Positions 916 to 24,056 of a DNA stretch of 64,000 nucleotides are shown here, in pieces. The notes beneath the pieces were generated by a model. The model did not search any database, was not told where the DNA came from, and saw nothing but the letters and a program-made list of their open reading frames with translations. The stretch is from Fusobacterium massiliense (GTDB taxonomy: Bacteria; Fusobacteriota; Fusobacteriia; Fusobacteriales; Fusobacteriaceae). The stretch's first letter is position 1. Every line of letters starts with the position of its first letter. The stretch is from contig NZ_LT608327.1 of assembly GCF_900095705.1 (NCBI RefSeq), positions 434,001 through 498,000 on the forward strand. The letters run 5' to 3'. The translations under genes were made by a program, and so were the position numbers.

Positions 916-2259
916 TTAAACAGTTAAATATTTCCATTTACCTCTTTTAAATACATAAAGCAATGCTAAACTTCTTACAAATAAATCTATCGTCATTACA
1001 ATCCAAGCTCCAGACAATCCTAGTTTTAAAACATACAAAAATAAATATGTCGTTGGTATTCTTACCAAAAATATTCCTACAAAAGTTATAAATAATACAG
1101 ACTTTGTATCTCCTGCTCCTCTTAATGCCCCACTTAAAACTAATGACATAGCAGAAAATGGTTGACATATAGATACAAGTCTTAAAGCAACAATTGATAA
1201 TGCAACTACATTCTCATCTTTTGAAAATAAAGAAACTAATAAATTTGGAGCCACTAAAAATATTATTCCCATAGTTGACATCACTATAACAGCTATTATC
1301 GTACATATATAACCTTTTTTTAAAGCCTGTTTGGGAGAATTTTTCCCCAGTTCTTGCCCTACTAATGCAGTAGCTGCAAAAGAAAAAGCAAATCCTAAGT
1401 TGAAAGAAAAACTTTCTCCAACTAAAGCAATCTTGTGAGCTGCATAACTCAAATTTCCTAGTGATATAACCATCATTTCAAATATAAGCATTCCAAATCT
1501 TAAGCCTAATTGTTCTATTGCTGCTGGTATAGCTACCTTTAAAATTCTTTTTGATAAATGATAATCAAATTTCATTTTCTTTATATCTAAAGATATCCAC
1601 TGATTTTTATTAATAAAAATCAAATATACACTCAAAATTAAAACAGATAATCTTGCAAAAGTAGTTCCCAAGGCTGCTCCAAATACTCCCCATTTAAATA
1701 TGTAAATGAATAGATAATTACATACTAAATTTACTAATAAAGCCAATGTATTCCCCATCATCGGAATTTTATTTTGTCCCAAAGCTCTAAAAGCATAAAA
1801 TGTTACTATACCGACTGTTAAAAATGGAAAACTTAAAGCAGTAATATTTTGATATATTATAGCTTCTTTCAAATTCATATCTTTAGTGTTTCCTATTAAA
1901 TTTATTATCTGTTCTGAGAAAAGTAAAAATAAAAGCATCAAAAATATTCCTAAAGGCAATGCAATATAAAAACTTTGTGCAAAAGCCTTTTTTCCTTCTT
2001 CTTGATTTTTCGCTCCATATGCTCTGCTTAAAAGAGCTGCTGTCCCAGTTGTAACTGATATTAAAGCTGGTATTAAAGCATACATAGCAGCTGAACCAAC
2101 TCCGACAGAACTTATAGCAGTGGCTCCCAAACTTCCAACCATTATCATATCTGTTGTAGCTATTAATGTCTGTGCCAATAAATCTAATACAGATGGAATT
2201 GCAATTTTAAATATTTTTTTTATAACTTCATTATTATTTTTTATTAATTCTTTTATCAT
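916..2259 (-). CDS. MATE family multidrug/sodium antiporter
   Basis: A 447-residue integral membrane protein, the usual MATE length, with about twelve hydrophobic segments. The N-terminal motif IAIPSVLDLLAQTLIATTDM and the second-half repeat KVAIPAAIEQLGLRFG are the paired MatE domain starts, and GSAAMYALIPALISV plus ALLSRAYGAKN match the conserved loop after helix 2. The family exports cationic drugs or metabolites using Na+ or H+ gradients. The substrate cannot be read from sequence. The start at 2259 has AAAGGAAAAAAGG upstream. The AddB-like gene follows after 26 bp. Confidence 0.9.
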   Translation of the reverse strand: MIKELIKNNNEVIKKIFKIAIPSVLDLLAQTLIATTDMIMVGSLGATAISSVGVGSAAMYALIPALISVTTGTAALLSRAYGAKNQEEGKKAFAQSFYIALPLGIFLMLLFLLFSEQIINLIGNTKDMNLKEAIIYQNITALSFPFLTVGIVTFYAFRALGQNKIPMMGNTLALLVNLVCNYLFIYIFKWGVFGAALGTTFARLSVLILSVYLIFINKNQWISLDIKKMKFDYHLSKRILKVAIPAAIEQLGLRFGMLIFEMMVISLGNLSYAAHKIALVGESFSFNLGFAFSFAATALVGQELGKNSPKQALKKGYICTIIAVIVMSTMGIIFLVAPNLLVSLFSKDENVVALSIVALRLVSICQPFSAMSLVLSGALRGAGDTKSVLFITFVGIFLVRIPTTYLFLYVLKLGLSGAWIVMTIDLFVRSLALLYVFKRGKWKYLTV

Positions 2260-2308
2260 AAATTATACCTTTTTTCCTTTAAATATTAGTATTTTATTAT
2301 ATCATAAA

Positions 2309-2336
2309 AGAAATAAAATTTATACTTTCCTTACAA
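2309..2336. repeat. Solo tail of the terminator-adjacent hairpin repeat (H1)
   Basis: The stretch TTTATACTTTCCTTACAAAT followed by AAAA matches the AT-rich tail of the dispersed hairpin repeat without its palindromic core. It abuts the terminator of the iron-uptake pair, in the same position that full copies occupy elsewhere in the window. Confidence 0.5.
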
Positions 2337-2386
2337 ATAAAAAAAGCCAATTATAGATTTTTAATAGAATCCTATAATTGACTTTC
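2336..2386. terminator. Intrinsic terminator of the fetM-fetP operon
   Basis: Stem AGCCAATTATAG / CTATAATTGACT around a short loop, with an A-run on the plus strand that reads as a T-tract for minus-strand transcripts. It follows the stop codon of the P19-like gene by about 70 bp. It has a T-rich flank on the other side also, so it may work in both directions. Confidence 0.7.
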
Positions 2387-2458
2387 TTAATATTATATTT
2401 CTAATATAATTAAATACTATATTTCGAATTTTAAATTTGAAACAAAGGAAAAAAACTA

Positions 2459-3121
2459 CTATTTATTTTGTAATTGTTCTCCAGTATAAATCCAATCAAA
2501 TTCAACATTTTGAGTTTTGAAAAATTCTTCTGCTGCTTCTTTTCCATTATCTCTAGCTGCTGGTACTCCAGTTTCTGAGTCCACATGTAATAAGTAATCA
2601 GTAGGTGCTTTAATTTCAAGTTGTAATTTATATTTTCCAACTGGGATTAATCCTTTTTTAACATTGATTCCATAGTGTGCTCCATCATCAGCATTCATTG
2701 GCATAAAAGTTCCTGAAGTTATTTCAGTTTTTCCATCTTCAGATAATACTTTATAATTTACTGTTAAATAAGCTGGCCATATATCTTGTCCTTCTCCAAA
2801 TCCATATTTAACTGCAGCTTCTGGTAATAAGTGAATATCTGCTTCTAAGTGCATATCAGATTCAGCTGCTGAAGGTTGTTTTCCTTCAGGTATCATATCA
2901 ACTGCTTGGAAATATACAGCTGCTACTTGATAAGGTCCAACTACTTTTTCTTCACCAATAGGTGTTTCAGCAAATCCAGATTCTCCTGGTTTTTCAGCAG
3001 GTGCTGCTTGAGCTTCAGCTGCTGGTTGTTCTGCAGGTGCTGCTGCCTCTTCTTTCTTTTCTCCACATGCAACAAGCCCCAATGCAAGCAATGCTGCTAA
3101 TAAAAATTTTAAATTTTTCAT
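2459..3121 (-). CDS. fetP: P19/Tp34-type periplasmic ferrous iron-binding lipoprotein (FetP-like)
   Basis: A 220-residue protein with a lipoprotein signal (LLALGLVACG, Cys 19) and an Ala/Pro/Glu-rich linker to about residue 45. The rest matches the Fe2+ transport protein family (P19 of Campylobacter, Tp34 of Treponema, FetP of E. coli): ADIHLLP with a buried His, MHLE with the Met/His pair, and PMNADDGAHYGINV. These proteins bind Fe/Cu-type metals on the outside of the membrane and work with an FTR1 permease. The permease gene lies 48 bp upstream on the same strand, so the two form an operon. The ribosome site is GGGAGGT. The exact ligand set is inferred from the family. Confidence 0.85.
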   Translation of the reverse strand: MKNLKFLLAALLALGLVACGEKKEEAAAPAEQPAAEAQAAPAEKPGESGFAETPIGEEKVVGPYQVAAVYFQAVDMIPEGKQPSAAESDMHLEADIHLLPEAAVKYGFGEGQDIWPAYLTVNYKVLSEDGKTEITSGTFMPMNADDGAHYGINVKKGLIPVGKYKLQLEIKAPTDYLLHVDSETGVPAARDNGKEAAEEFFKTQNVEFDWIYTGEQLQNK

Positions 3122-3169
3122 AAAAAATACCTCCCTAAATTTATAATAAAATATAAAAAACTTTGTAAA

Positions 3170-4477
3170 CTAGTTATTTTCTGCTTCTTTTTTAGCTTTT
3201 TTTTCTTTTAACGAATTATTTAGCAACATCCAGCAAGAAGCAATTACCAACATAATTTGTGGTATTAATGTTTCAGCTCTATCATATATATTAAGCCATG
3301 TATTTTGATATCCATTCATTGCTGGTATAGTTGTACTTCCTGATATAACTCCTGCTTCAGTAAGTTCAACAACACCTTTTCCCATAAACGAAATACATAA
3401 CAAGAATAATAAGATACTTGTAAATTTAAAAAATGGTTTTAATGGTAATCTAACTGTAGTATATCTAAATATAACATAAATTGCTATCAAAACTACAGTT
3501 CCTACTAAAAATCCATAAAAAGCAAACATCTTATTAGTTTGACCTCCAGTTAACATAGCTTTATAGAACAGTACTAATTCTGCCCCTTCTCTTAAAACAG
3601 CTAAAAAAGCCGAAAAAATTAAAGCTCTCCCACTGTTTTGGTCTATTGATTTTTGAACTTGAGATTTTATATATCTTGACCATGCTTCTTCTTCAGAACG
3701 AGATAAAATCCAGTTACTTACCCAGAATAAGACAGCAACAGCTAGAAACATTGTTATCCCTTCCATCATTTCTTGTCCTACTCCACCAAGTAGAATATCT
3801 ATTAAAAATGCTAATATGAATGAACCTATAACTCCTGCTCCCATTCCATAATACACTTGTTTGCACAACTTTTCATTTCCTGTTTTTACTAAGTACGCAA
3901 TAATAGCAACTACTACTAATATAGCTTCTAATCCTTCTCTCAAAAGTAGACCAAAAGAAGCTCCAAAAGATTTTAGTTTTATTGTTGTTTCATCTCCAGT
4001 TACCACAGAGCCACCTTTAAATAATATTTCTCCAACTGAATCTGGAGAATCTTTTGCTACAGCTCCGTCCAACACCATAGCATCTCTATAAACTTTAACA
4101 GCTAATAAATCAATTTCATCATCAAGTTCTTTGACATTTCCTTGAAGATTTCCTTTTAGTACATGCTTAATTCTACGAAATGTAGCTTCAATTTCATTAA
4201 CTCTTTTTGCTGCTATATTTACCATAACATTTTTCTCGAAACCTTGTACTTCATAATAACCAAAATAAGCTCTGTTCATTGCATCATATGCTTCATCATT
4301 ATTCCCAGTTTCAATTGCTTTTTTAGCAGCTTGAAATTCAACATTCATATCTTTGGCTACATCTTGCCAAGTATCATATTTTTTCTTTTGAGCTGCTTCA
4401 ACATTAAGCGATGAAAATGAAACTAATAAAGAAAATATAATCCCGAAAACAAATGACATTTTTAAAAATTTCTTCAC
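3170..4477 (-). CDS. fetM: FTR1 family iron permease (FetM/EfeU-like)
   Basis: A 435-residue protein with a signal peptide, a helical periplasmic domain (about residues 30-170) and a seven-helix permease domain (about 178-425). Both diagnostic REXXE iron-binding motifs of the FTR1 family are present: LLREGLEAILVV and VLREGAELVLFY. The N-terminal extracellular helical extension is typical of bacterial FetM-type members. The start is GTG at 4477 with AGAGGTGAG upstream; an overlapping ATG is out of frame. It is the first gene of the pair with the P19-like lipoprotein. Promoter and palindromes lie just upstream (4529-4557). Confidence 0.9.
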   Translation of the reverse strand: MKKFLKMSFVFGIIFSLLVSFSSLNVEAAQKKKYDTWQDVAKDMNVEFQAAKKAIETGNNDEAYDAMNRAYFGYYEVQGFEKNVMVNIAAKRVNEIEATFRRIKHVLKGNLQGNVKELDDEIDLLAVKVYRDAMVLDGAVAKDSPDSVGEILFKGGSVVTGDETTIKLKSFGASFGLLLREGLEAILVVVAIIAYLVKTGNEKLCKQVYYGMGAGVIGSFILAFLIDILLGGVGQEMMEGITMFLAVAVLFWVSNWILSRSEEEAWSRYIKSQVQKSIDQNSGRALIFSAFLAVLREGAELVLFYKAMLTGGQTNKMFAFYGFLVGTVVLIAIYVIFRYTTVRLPLKPFFKFTSILLFLLCISFMGKGVVELTEAGVISGSTTIPAMNGYQNTWLNIYDRAETLIPQIMLVIASCWMLLNNSLKEKKAKKEAENN

Positions 4478-19228: not shown

Positions 19229-19431
19229 TTTATCACCTTCCTAAAATTTATCTGATATCTCAATAATCATACCATATAAAGTTCTATATTGCAATAGCTA
19301 ATTTTTAGATTTTATACAATTTCATAATTTAAAATCTTACTTTTTTCTATCAAGATATTATTTCATTTATATATAAAAAATTAAAAAAATATGTTAAAAT
19401 AAAAATAAAAGATAAGGAGACTAGTTATAAA

Positions 19432-21114
19432 ATGTCTTTAGAAAATATGAAAAAATTTATTTTTGATATAGAAATTTATCCGAATTATTTTTGTGTAGTC
19501 ATAAAAGAATTTGAAAAAAATAATATTTTTGTATTAGATAGCTCTAACTTTCATAGTAAAAAAAATGAGATATTTGAACTTTTAAAAAATTCACTATTAA
19601 TTTCCTATGCTGGAAATAGTTTTGATGATAAAGTTTTGAATTATTTATTCACATTTAAAAATATAAATAAAATTTCTATGAAAGAAATTCATAATAACAT
19701 AAAAAATATTAATAAAAATATTCTTGTTCCTACTACAAAAAGATTTTTTTCATTTGATATTTATAGAGAATATGACTGTACTGTTGGAATTAAAGGATTT
19801 AGTTTTAATATTGGGGAAGCTATTGTGGAACCTAAAGAAAACTTTGAATTTCCAGTTGATAGAAAAAAAACTCAAACAATTATTGATTATTGCACTAATG
19901 ACGTACTTGTCACAGAAAAGCTATTTATTCATATGATAAAGAATAGGGATCTTATATCTGAAAAAGAGAATATTATAAAAAAGATTTTAAGAAAAGAAAA
20001 AATTGATAACAGTGAGCTTTTTAAATATTTAAAATACACTATTAATGAGCTAATTGTAATATTTTTAACAAAAAATAATAACAAAAATTTTAAGAAAAAA
20101 AATTCTCCTTCATATTTAAAATATAATAAATATGATAATATAAAAACTTACTTTGATAATGTTAAGAGTTCTAAAGTTTGTATATTTGAACTTGAAAATA
20201 CTTATTTTTATAAAATAATTAAAAAACTTTATGAAGTTAAAAAACTTAGATTAAAAGTTTTGAACTATGAGAAAATTGCTTCTTTAGATGAAAAATATTT
20301 ATCCGATATTTTTGAAATTATAACCACATCAGAAGTAAGTGTTTTAAAGAAAACTGACGCTCTTTATTTTAAAAAAATAAAAACTATTTTCTTAAAAAAA
20401 ATTGATTTATTTATTGAAAGAAATAATGCTAAATTACTAAAATTCAATAAAAATAAAATTTTTATTGAATTTTCAGATAATAATGAAAGACTTTCTTCTA
20501 TTATTGCTTCGTATTTTAATTTATTAGGTATTGACTTTAATATTATTTTTCCACAAAAGTTTCTTAGACTAAATGATCATAAGAAAAATTTTATATATGA
20601 ATACGATAATCAATTATACTTTAGTAAAAAATTTAACTATGATATTACTATAAATCCTAAAGACCATAAGTGGTTAGCAGAAGTTTTGAAACTTCACTAT
20701 TTAGAAAAATTAGATATAAAAAAAGCTATAAAAGATATTTATAAAAATAATCCTGACTATTTTTTTATGTACTACACTGCTAGTTCTCAAGTATTTAAAT
20801 GCTCTGAAAAAGGAAAAATTTTAAATTCAAAAACTTTATCTTCCGGAAAAAAATACAGAGTTTACTATTCAAAAACTGGAGTATTTAAACCTATTGATTT
20901 TAAGAAACTTTCCAATGATGAAACTGAAAGTTTAAAATATAAAAGTAATTTTGCTTTTGGAGAACTTGATAGTCCTTATTACAAATTAAAAACTTTTGAT
21001 GATAATTTAGAAAAGTTTTTAGATTATGATGACTTTGATTTAGAAAGCTATTACCTTTATGCTAAAGAATATATAAAAAATGATGAAAATAAAGATTTAG
21101 ATGTCGGAGACTAA
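19432..21114 (+). CDS. DEDDy exonuclease with a degenerate phage-type family B polymerase body
   Basis: 560 residues. Exo I is FDIEIYPN (D12, E14), Exo II is YAGNSFDDKV (N62, D66), Exo III is DYCTNDVLVTEKLF (Y153, D157), a complete DEDDy 3'-5' exonuclease; KGFSFNIGEAIVEPKENFEF matches the region between Exo II and III in phage DNA polymerases. The C-terminal part keeps the order of a phage family B palm, but where NTDG (motif C) is expected it reads FNKNKIFIEF (about 338-346), and the motif A region reads CIFELENTYFYKI without the Asp and Ser-Leu-Tyr-Pro. The KFLRLNDHKKNFIYEYDNQLYF segment resembles the post-motif C RDVNNYI block. Polymerase activity is therefore unlikely; a nuclease role is inferred. 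No phage genes are near. Its last residues and stop codon come from a decayed hairpin repeat. Confidence 0.65.
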   Translation: MSLENMKKFIFDIEIYPNYFCVVIKEFEKNNIFVLDSSNFHSKKNEIFELLKNSLLISYAGNSFDDKVLNYLFTFKNINKISMKEIHNNIKNINKNILVPTTKRFFSFDIYREYDCTVGIKGFSFNIGEAIVEPKENFEFPVDRKKTQTIIDYCTNDVLVTEKLFIHMIKNRDLISEKENIIKKILRKEKIDNSELFKYLKYTINELIVIFLTKNNNKNFKKKNSPSYLKYNKYDNIKTYFDNVKSSKVCIFELENTYFYKIIKKLYEVKKLRLKVLNYEKIASLDEKYLSDIFEIITTSEVSVLKKTDALYFKKIKTIFLKKIDLFIERNNAKLLKFNKNKIFIEFSDNNERLSSIIASYFNLLGIDFNIIFPQKFLRLNDHKKNFIYEYDNQLYFSKKFNYDITINPKDHKWLAEVLKLHYLEKLDIKKAIKDIYKNNPDYFFMYYTASSQVFKCSEKGKILNSKTLSSGKKYRVYYSKTGVFKPIDFKKLSNDETESLKYKSNFAFGELDSPYYKLKTFDDNLEKFLDYDDFDLESYYLYAKEYIKNDENKDLDVGD

Positions 21115-21338: not shown

Positions 21339-21842
21339 TTATACAAATTCTTTTTTTACTTCATTTATCCAATCTTCAATTCTTTTTGGTGTTAAATCTG
21401 CTTGATTTTCTTCATCAAGAGCAAGTCCAATGAATTTTCCATTTTCAATAATTTCTGTTTCTTCAAAATGATATCCATCAACACTTGTAAATCCTACAAC
21501 TTTTCCACCTTTTCTTTTTACTATATCATATAGATATTTTATACCTCCACAAAAAGATTCACCAAAAGCAAATTGATTTCCTAAACCAACAAGTCCTATA
21601 ACTTTTCCAGTAAAATCAATTTCTTCTAATTTTTTTAAGTTGTTCATCCATGCTGCATGAGCTTCTCCAACTTGATAAGTAGGAGTTACTAATATAAGAT
21701 TTTGAAAATTTTCAATTTCTTTTATAGCACTTTTTACATTAAATGTCTTAAAATCATCTTTTCTTAAAAAAAATTCAATCTCATCAACAACTCCAGTTGT
21801 AGTTTTTGTAAGTGTTGCATAAAAAATTCCTATCGTTTTCAT
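21339..21842 (-). CDS. Flavodoxin, paralogue 1
   Basis: A 167-residue long-chain-type flavodoxin. The N-terminal phosphate loop is degenerate (FYATLTKTTTGVVDEI in place of the usual T-x-T-G-x-T), whereas the flavin loops VTPTYQVGEAHAAW and GLGNQFAFGESFCGG are present. It carries electrons at low potential. Next upstream is tcdA, 13 bp away on the same strand, so they share a transcript. A better conserved paralogue is at 23553-24056. Confidence 0.88.
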   Translation of the reverse strand: MKTIGIFYATLTKTTTGVVDEIEFFLRKDDFKTFNVKSAIKEIENFQNLILVTPTYQVGEAHAAWMNNLKKLEEIDFTGKVIGLVGLGNQFAFGESFCGGIKYLYDIVKRKGGKVVGFTSVDGYHFEETEIIENGKFIGLALDEENQADLTPKRIEDWINEVKKEFV

Positions 21843-22886: not shown

Positions 22887-23126
22887 ATGACAAATATAAA
22901 TGCCACAAATTTAAGAAAAAATCTATTTTCTTACTTGGATTCAACAATAGAATATAATGACATTGTTAATATTAATACAAAAAAAGGAAATGTTATTATG
23001 ATAAGTGAAGTTGAATATAATGGTTTGCTTGAAACTTTATATCTAACTTCTATTCCTAGTATGAAAAAAAGATTTGAAGAAGCATTAAATGCTACTAAAG
23101 AAGATTACGAGGAATTTGAATGGTAG
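22887..23126 (+). CDS. yefM: YefM/Phd-type antitoxin
   Basis: A 79-residue protein: INATNLRKNLFSYLDSTIEYNDIVNI and KKGNVIMISEVEYNGLLETLYL are the YefM DNA-binding and dimer core, and the acidic C-terminus (KEDYEEFEW) is the toxin-wrapping tail. It neutralises the YoeB nuclease and represses the operon. AAAGGAGGAG precedes the ATG. Its end overlaps the toxin start by 7 bp, the usual translational coupling in such pairs. Confidence 0.93.
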   Translation: MTNINATNLRKNLFSYLDSTIEYNDIVNINTKKGNVIMISEVEYNGLLETLYLTSIPSMKKRFEEALNATKEDYEEFEW

Positions 23127-23395
23127 AAGAATATAAGGTTTTCATATTAAAAAAAGCAAATAAAGATAAAGAAAAGATTAAACAATATCCAGCACTAAAA
23201 ACTAATGTTGAGAAATTAATTAATCTTATAAAGCAAGATCCCTTTAAAGTCCCTCCGTCTTATGAGGCATTAGTTGGAAATCTAAAGGGCTATTATTCAC
23301 GAAGAATAAATCATCAACACAGACTTGTATATGAAGTTATTGAAGAAGAAAAGAGAATAAATATAATTAGTATGTGGACGCATTATGACTTTTAA
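23120..23395 (+). CDS. yoeB: YoeB/Txe-type mRNA interferase toxin
   Basis: A 91-residue RelE-fold toxin. Conserved YoeB/Txe blocks: KDPFKVPPSYEALVG-like PSYEALVGNLKGYYSRRIN, QHRLVYEV and the C-terminal WTHYDF (catalytic Glu, Arg, His and Tyr positions of YoeB are all kept). It cleaves mRNA at the ribosomal A site when freed from YefM. It starts inside the antitoxin gene. Confidence 0.95.
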   Translation: MVEEYKVFILKKANKDKEKIKQYPALKTNVEKLINLIKQDPFKVPPSYEALVGNLKGYYSRRINHQHRLVYEVIEEEKRINIISMWTHYDF

Positions 23396-23552: not shown

Positions 23553-24056
23553 TTATAATAATTCGTCTTTTACTTTATTTTCTAACCAATCTTCAACTTT
23601 AGAAGTAATTTCATCTGTATCGAATGAAGCATCTATAGCTAATCCCATAAATTTATCTCCATCAATAACTGCTTCAGAAGCTTCGAAATCATATCCATCA
23701 GTAGAAGTAAATCCTACTATTTTTGCTCCTTTAGGTTCTACAGCATCATAGAAGTGTTTCATTGATTCTACATAGTTACCTCCAAATATTGCAGCATCTC
23801 CTACACCAACAAATGCTACAACTTTTCCAGAGAAATCCATGTCTGCAACTTCATCTATAACAGAAGCCCAATCATCTTGTAATTCTCCCATTCCATAAGT
23901 TGGAGAAGCTAATATAATGTTGTCGAACATTTCTATTTCATCAACACCGTTAGCTACATCAAATACTTGTGCATCTCCTAATTGAGAAGCTATAATATCT
24001 ACAACTTCTTGTGTTTTTCCTCCTGTAGTTCCAAAAAAGATACCAACTGTCTTCAT
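23553..24056 (-). CDS. fldA: Flavodoxin, paralogue 2
   Basis: A 167-residue flavodoxin with a canonical phosphate loop GTTGGKTQEV, the first flavin loop SPTYGMGELQDDW and the second GVGDAAIFGGNY, and an acidic surface as expected for a small electron carrier. It belongs to the long-chain class (VGFTSTDGYDFEAS insertion). A strong promoter lies upstream. Compared with paralogue 1 it has the complete phosphate loop, so it is the likelier housekeeping copy. Confidence 0.93.
   Translation of the reverse strand: MKTVGIFFGTTGGKTQEVVDIIASQLGDAQVFDVANGVDEIEMFDNIILASPTYGMGELQDDWASVIDEVADMDFSGKVVAFVGVGDAAIFGGNYVESMKHFYDAVEPKGAKIVGFTSTDGYDFEASEAVIDGDKFMGLAIDASFDTDEITSKVEDWLENKVKDELL

Follow-up and report, generated by a model that had tools for sequence, protein, structure and literature searches.

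Archaeal PolB2 and its bacterial homologues are chromosomal derivatives of family B DNA polymerases with altered catalytic motifs (Rogozin 2008, PMC2527604; PMC8764526). They are characterized by the loss of Exo I (DIE) and by a retained distal aspartate in motif C (PMC2527604). Archaeal PolB2 was predicted to be dead and proved to be an active polymerase, which counts against over-reading degenerate motifs such as those described below (PMC8764526). A dead family B polymerase module also forms the C-terminal part of eukaryotic Pol epsilon (PMC2669801), and chordopoxvirus F12 is a probable phage-derived polymerase with a dead palm, in which the exonuclease motifs are better kept than the polymerase motifs (PMC4304020). 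In the polymerase of Enterococcus phage IME199, which is related to the protein described here, alanine at the exonuclease residues kills the exonuclease and leaves the polymerase, and the motif C mutation D596A almost abolishes the polymerase and leaves the exonuclease (PMC10590003). Hence, the two functions are separable. In the open-licence papers searched, no bacterial family B derivative was found in which the exonuclease is kept and the polymerase lost. Stand-alone PolB-like exonucleases (the DNA_pol_B_exo2 and RNase_H_2/YprB types of Pfam) are predicted family-B-like 3'-5' exonucleases with no active polymerase.

The gene analysed in this study, termed X, encodes a protein that shares its length (560 versus 577 aa), domain order, exonuclease residues and thumb with the phrog_1252 polymerases, represented by that of Staphylococcus phage phiST9-C. 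In contrast to these enzymes it lacks the motif A and motif C aspartates, the Lys and Gly of motif B, the KxGG segment and the Asn of Exo II, and it is chromosomal and located outside any phage. Compared with PolB2 the situation is reversed. PolB2, which in Sulfolobus is an active polymerase, has lost Exo I and the exonuclease, whereas X has kept FDIE and lost the aspartate of motif C. Unlike X, the Pol epsilon module has both its exonuclease and its polymerase inactivated and is fused to an active polymerase (PMC2669801), while F12 is a viral morphogenesis protein whose exonuclease is probably inactivated too (PMC4304020). From the stand-alone PolB-like exonucleases X differs in matching no Pfam model and in carrying a polymerase thumb and palm remnants.

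X is located at 19432..21114 (+) of the window, i.e. the whole stretch of 64,000 nucleotides that was analysed, and its 560-aa product, read from an ATG start, is a derivative of a phage-type family B DNA polymerase with the exonuclease centre kept and the polymerase centre gone. A sequence-only reading of this DNA had claimed an intact frame, codon use similar to that of the neighbours and the absence of phage genes nearby. The frame is real and uninterrupted over 560 codons, and AAGGAG at 19414..19419 (+), 12 nt 5' of the ATG, reads as a putative Shine-Dalgarno-like site; a promoter scan stayed at chance level (26 versus 24.8). The similarity in codon use holds only marginally, as the codon fit of X ranks last among the ten genes compared (0.503 versus 0.506-0.740 bits/codon in the neighbours). 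Its GC content is 20.1% versus 24-34% across nine neighbours, which is compatible with a foreign origin or with a protein rich in Lys, Asn and Ile and decides nothing between them. The adjoining genes are upp, rpmE, a flavodoxin gene, a ThiF-family gene and a YefM-YoeB pair, none of them a phage gene. In the window genome X is solitary, divergent from rpmE and convergent with the flavodoxin gene, and it sits at a rearrangement, because upp-rpmE and the flavodoxin-ThiF pair are separate in congeners. The YefM-YoeB pair, identified by Pfam as a Phd/YefM antitoxin gene overlapping a YoeB-like toxin gene, lies 1.8 kb from X (22887-23395, +). Two nearby flavodoxin genes (21339-21842 and 23553-24056, both -) are 44% identical and flank the ThiF-family gene and the toxin-antitoxin genes; in both congeners the flavodoxin copies are far apart or on different contigs.

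A search of PHROGs assigned X to phrog_1252 'DNA polymerase' (2.8e-14, residues 4-234), which was matched by all 13 X members. Sequence searches of Pfam, NCBIfam and PDB gave no usable match, Pfam being blank for the C-terminal half, and direct tblastn against phage genomes detected the exonuclease only (residues 11-165). The relatives that still have complete polymerase motifs are small siphophage or prophage family B polymerases, such as the 577-aa enzyme of phiST9-C and those on many IMG/VR contigs. The family B assignment made from the sequence alone is thus upheld, while the closest group is this phiST9-C/phrog_1252 siphophage type and not phi29 itself. X and the phage polymerases align collinearly from end to end (profile-profile E 1.6e-16, 474 columns). 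Since the exonuclease drives this score, homology was retested with the exonuclease removed. The remainder of X scored 42.4 and the thumb alone 35.5, whereas 60 column shuffles reached no more than 22.2 and 18.8, respectively. Homology of the predicted thumb is independently supported by these profiles. The palm alone scored 17.6 versus a maximum of 18.3 in the shuffles, which is not significant, and its identity is deduced from its place between two homologous domains.

An AlphaFold model of the window protein, computed from this protein, two Leptotrichia sequences and 14 viral sequences, reached a pLDDT of 67 and a pTM of 0.65, and is not fully independent because phage sequences stood in its alignment. 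It contains a motif-C-like beta hairpin (strands 333-338 and 342-347) in which NKNK forms the turn. The model made for Leptotrichia X is poor across the palm. Foldseek matches in PDB at E <= 0.001 were family B polymerases, with TM-scores so low (0.20-0.29) and rmsd so large that the domain arrangement is unreliable. Matches in BFVD at E <= 0.001 were viral DNA polymerases or unnamed viral proteins, the best being a Siphoviridae DNA polymerase (E 4.7e-16, 653 columns). A polymerase-like palm is thus predicted, as judged from the modelled hairpin with its NKNK turn and from the family B matches. In a tree of the exonuclease domain X forms a single group with 100/99 support, consistent with a single loss of polymerase function before the lineages leading to the window and Leptotrichia X split. 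Placement of the phage parent in the tree was rejected as unreliable in view of long branches.

The DEDDy 3'-5' exonuclease domain comprises about residues 5-175 (19444..19956, +), as indicated by the phrog_1252 match, by AlphaFold blocks mostly above pLDDT 70 and by the lowest dN/dS in Leptotrichia. Its catalytic state was read from an alignment of 13 X proteins with 30 phage polymerases. Exo I, FDIE with D12 and E14 (19462..19473, +), is invariant in all of these sequences; Exo II reads YAGNSFDD (19606..19629, +), with D65 retained and G61 at the Asn position, and Exo III reads DYCTND, with Y153 and D157 (19885..19902, +). The X family and its phage relatives share D12, E14, D65, Y153 and D157 without exception, so that the DEDDy ligands and the Exo III tyrosine are all present. 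The sequence-only reading had named D12, E14, Y153 and D157 correctly and had placed the Exo II Asp at D66, which is a conserved neighbour and not the ligand according to the pattern N-N-x-x-Y/F-D in the alignment with the 30 phage polymerases. Nor is N62 the Exo II Asn, as that reading had it: this residue is His or Arg in relatives, and the true position, four residues ahead of the Asp, carries Gly in 13 of 13 aligned X proteins. In the phage rows Asn occupies this position in 28 of 30, with G or S in the rest. The Exo II Asn aids single-strand binding in phi29-type enzymes, and its loss suggests an altered hold on the 3' end.

The degenerate palm/fingers region spans about residues 248-405 (20173..20646, +), placed there by the collinear alignment and the model hairpin, the palm sequence similarity alone being not significant. 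As had been claimed, motif A is without its Asp and Tyr-Pro. The remnant reads VCIFELENTYFYK (residues 249-261; 20176..20214, +), with E253 at the Asp position in the collinear and 43-row alignments; Leptotrichia X has Ser or Thr there. At the position of motif B (EIITTSEVS; 20314..20340, +), where the alignment is uncertain, Lys, Asn and Gly are lost. Some Leptotrichia X retain LLLNSSF against LVLNSVYG, although Lys and Gly are lost. The motif C remnant KFNKNKIFIE (20440..20469, +), located by alignment and by the model hairpin, includes the NKNK noticed earlier (339-342), with N341 in place of the catalytic Asp. This Asp is Asn in all X, and the following residue varies (D, E, N, K); hence, there is no conserved shifted aspartate. 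The KxGG segment is absent and the segment between motifs B and C is shortened. The sequence-only reading held that homologues keeping the motif A and C aspartates would speak against it; they are kept in none of the 13 aligned X proteins versus all 30 aligned phage polymerases. The thumb-like C-terminal region, about residues 405-553 (20644..21090, +), is defined by its profile score against shuffles and contains R476, which X shares with the phage polymerases and which is invariant in one of the alignments. As far as the sequence goes, the polymerase residues of X are gone, and the exonuclease residues are kept and are the most constrained.

In a search of the phylum X was found once in the window genome and, again at a single locus per genome, in 13 genomes of Leptotrichia, among them Leptotrichia sp. 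oral taxon 879 and L. hongkongensis. Twelve of these 13 copies have an intact frame and share 33-36% identity with the window protein over its whole length. The thirteenth (L014 in genome G046) shifts frame near residue 257, at about 2265-2271, with the exonuclease domain intact, which may be a real mutation or an assembly error. X was absent from both congeners of the window species and from the other sampled genera of the phylum. A wider sample of 389 genomes from 292 genera added just one weak 34-residue match. No X was found on the plasmids searched or in three scans of viral contigs with X queries, which needed short exact peptide patterns that distant members may escape. Searching phrog_1252 over 98 genomes revealed no active polymerase donor in the Fusobacteriota; the only matches were X and a distinct PolB-like exonuclease. 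The latter (L049 in G038, 1423-3183, +) is a 586-aa ORF that joins a PolB-like 3'-5' exonuclease to an apparent dTDP-4-dehydrorhamnose reductase, named by eye, and may be a fusion or a frame error.

The gene order cls-truB-X-ruvC-trmL-thyA is constant in Leptotrichia, with X present in 13 of 13 genomes, beginning 17-33 nt past truB and ending 40-118 nt ahead of ruvC. In several sister genera truB adjoins ruvC with nothing between them, which indicates that X was inserted into an older cluster and then kept. No remnants of X were detected by tblastn beside ruvC in the sister genera or beside upp and the flavodoxin gene in the congeners of the window species, and the gain of X is placed at the base of Leptotrichia. 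One sister genus (G040) carries a different 241-aa gene between truB and ruvC (L128, 2263-2988, -); thus, this gap took inserts more than once. The link of X to ruvC is weak, because the truB-ruvC adjacency predates X and in the window genome X sits elsewhere. Median pairwise dN/dS in Leptotrichia X was 0.04 for the exonuclease, 0.19 for the palm region and 0.13 for the thumb, and 0.12 for the whole gene compared with 0.04 for ruvC and 0.12 for truB; these values are rough, because many pairs are near synonymous saturation. In Leptotrichia, the low dN/dS together with the constant gene order shows that selection keeps X, as had been proposed earlier.

On balance, X is probably a host DNA 3'-5' exonuclease for repair or recombination, with the dead siphophage-type polymerase as a DNA-holding scaffold, its activity being predicted from the conserved catalytic residues. 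In this scheme a DNA duplex or a 3' end would be held by what remains of the palm together with the thumb, and nucleotides would be stripped off the held 3' end at the two-metal DEDDy site. X would thus be a stand-alone exonuclease that edits DNA or trims its ends during repair or recombination. The nonsignificant palm score, the missing Exo II Asn and the frameshifted Leptotrichia copy weigh against this reading. Its fixed place in every examined Leptotrichia genome suggests that the cell reuses X as a nuclease. The domesticated phage-type polymerase with lost polymerase motifs that had been proposed from the sequence is supported by the motif alignment, the Foldseek matches, dN/dS and the fixed synteny. 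Compensation for a missing DnaQ-like exonuclease was also considered and dropped given the PF00929 counts: each Leptotrichia genome has 2, as do most sister genera, and the window genome and its two congeners have 1 each.

It is unlikely that the dead-polymerase protein was instead retargeted to RNA as a 3'-5' exonuclease trimming tRNA or mRNA. DEDD enzymes in general work on DNA or RNA, the loss of the Exo II Asn would fit such a change, and the genes near X in Leptotrichia include two for tRNA modification, truB and trmL. However, the protein retains the thumb, which grips duplex DNA in polymerases, and the neighbours say little, since the truB-ruvC-trmL cluster was in place before X. Slightly less probable still is a catalytically idle or mainly structural protein whose task would be to bind DNA or a partner in replication, the role initially suggested for inactivated family B polymerases. 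The Pol epsilon module provides a precedent (PMC2669801), and purifying selection also on the thumb (0.13) and the palm (0.19), as well as the missing Exo II Asn, would agree with it; against it, the five exonuclease residues are invariant within the most constrained domain, and the known idle domains had lost Exo I (PMC2527604).

We attach a low probability to an anti-phage defence function, in which the host would use an enzyme taken from a phage to degrade invading or replicating phage DNA. The phage origin of the protein and its patchy presence within the window's genus would be expected of such a nuclease, but in Leptotrichia X is a fixed single-copy gene between housekeeping genes and lies outside any defence island. 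PADLOC was blank for the window protein and gave one stray match (0.0018) in 1 of 13 members, and the YefM-YoeB pair near the window copy is absent from the Leptotrichia neighbourhood. That X is not derived from a polymerase at all, and consists of a PolB-like exonuclease domain fused to an unrelated C-terminal half, is very improbable. Stand-alone PolB-like exonucleases do exist, as at L049, the palm score alone is not significant, and Pfam is blank for the C-terminal half; yet the thumb similarity exceeds all 60 shuffles, the collinear alignment runs from end to end with remnants of the motif A and C strands, and the fold matches span 600-700 columns. Continued DNA synthesis through altered motifs is hardly credible: Sulfolobus Dpo2, predicted to be inactivated, is a robust polymerase (PMC8764526) and the window protein has an acidic residue, E253, where motif A would have its Asp, but Dpo2 lost its exonuclease and retains the distal Asp of motif C along with its PolA and PolB motifs, whereas X has Ser, Thr or Glu in motif A, Asn in motif C, no motif B Lys or Gly, no KxGG and a short B-C segment.

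In PolB2, the Pol epsilon module and poxvirus F12 the exonuclease has been lost or probably lost, and the X family, which is bacterial and conserved, shows the reverse. The family also offers a gain at the base of Leptotrichia, an empty site for comparison and phage relatives that are still recognisable. With somewhat better than even confidence in the preferred reading, we propose that in a bacterial genus the replicative polymerase of a phage became a dedicated 3'-5' exonuclease, in which the dead palm and thumb would serve as a DNA grip, the mirror image of archaeal PolB2. X allows a simple test of whether a replicative polymerase stripped down to proofreading works as a nuclease, and of what use such an enzyme may be to an oral genus.
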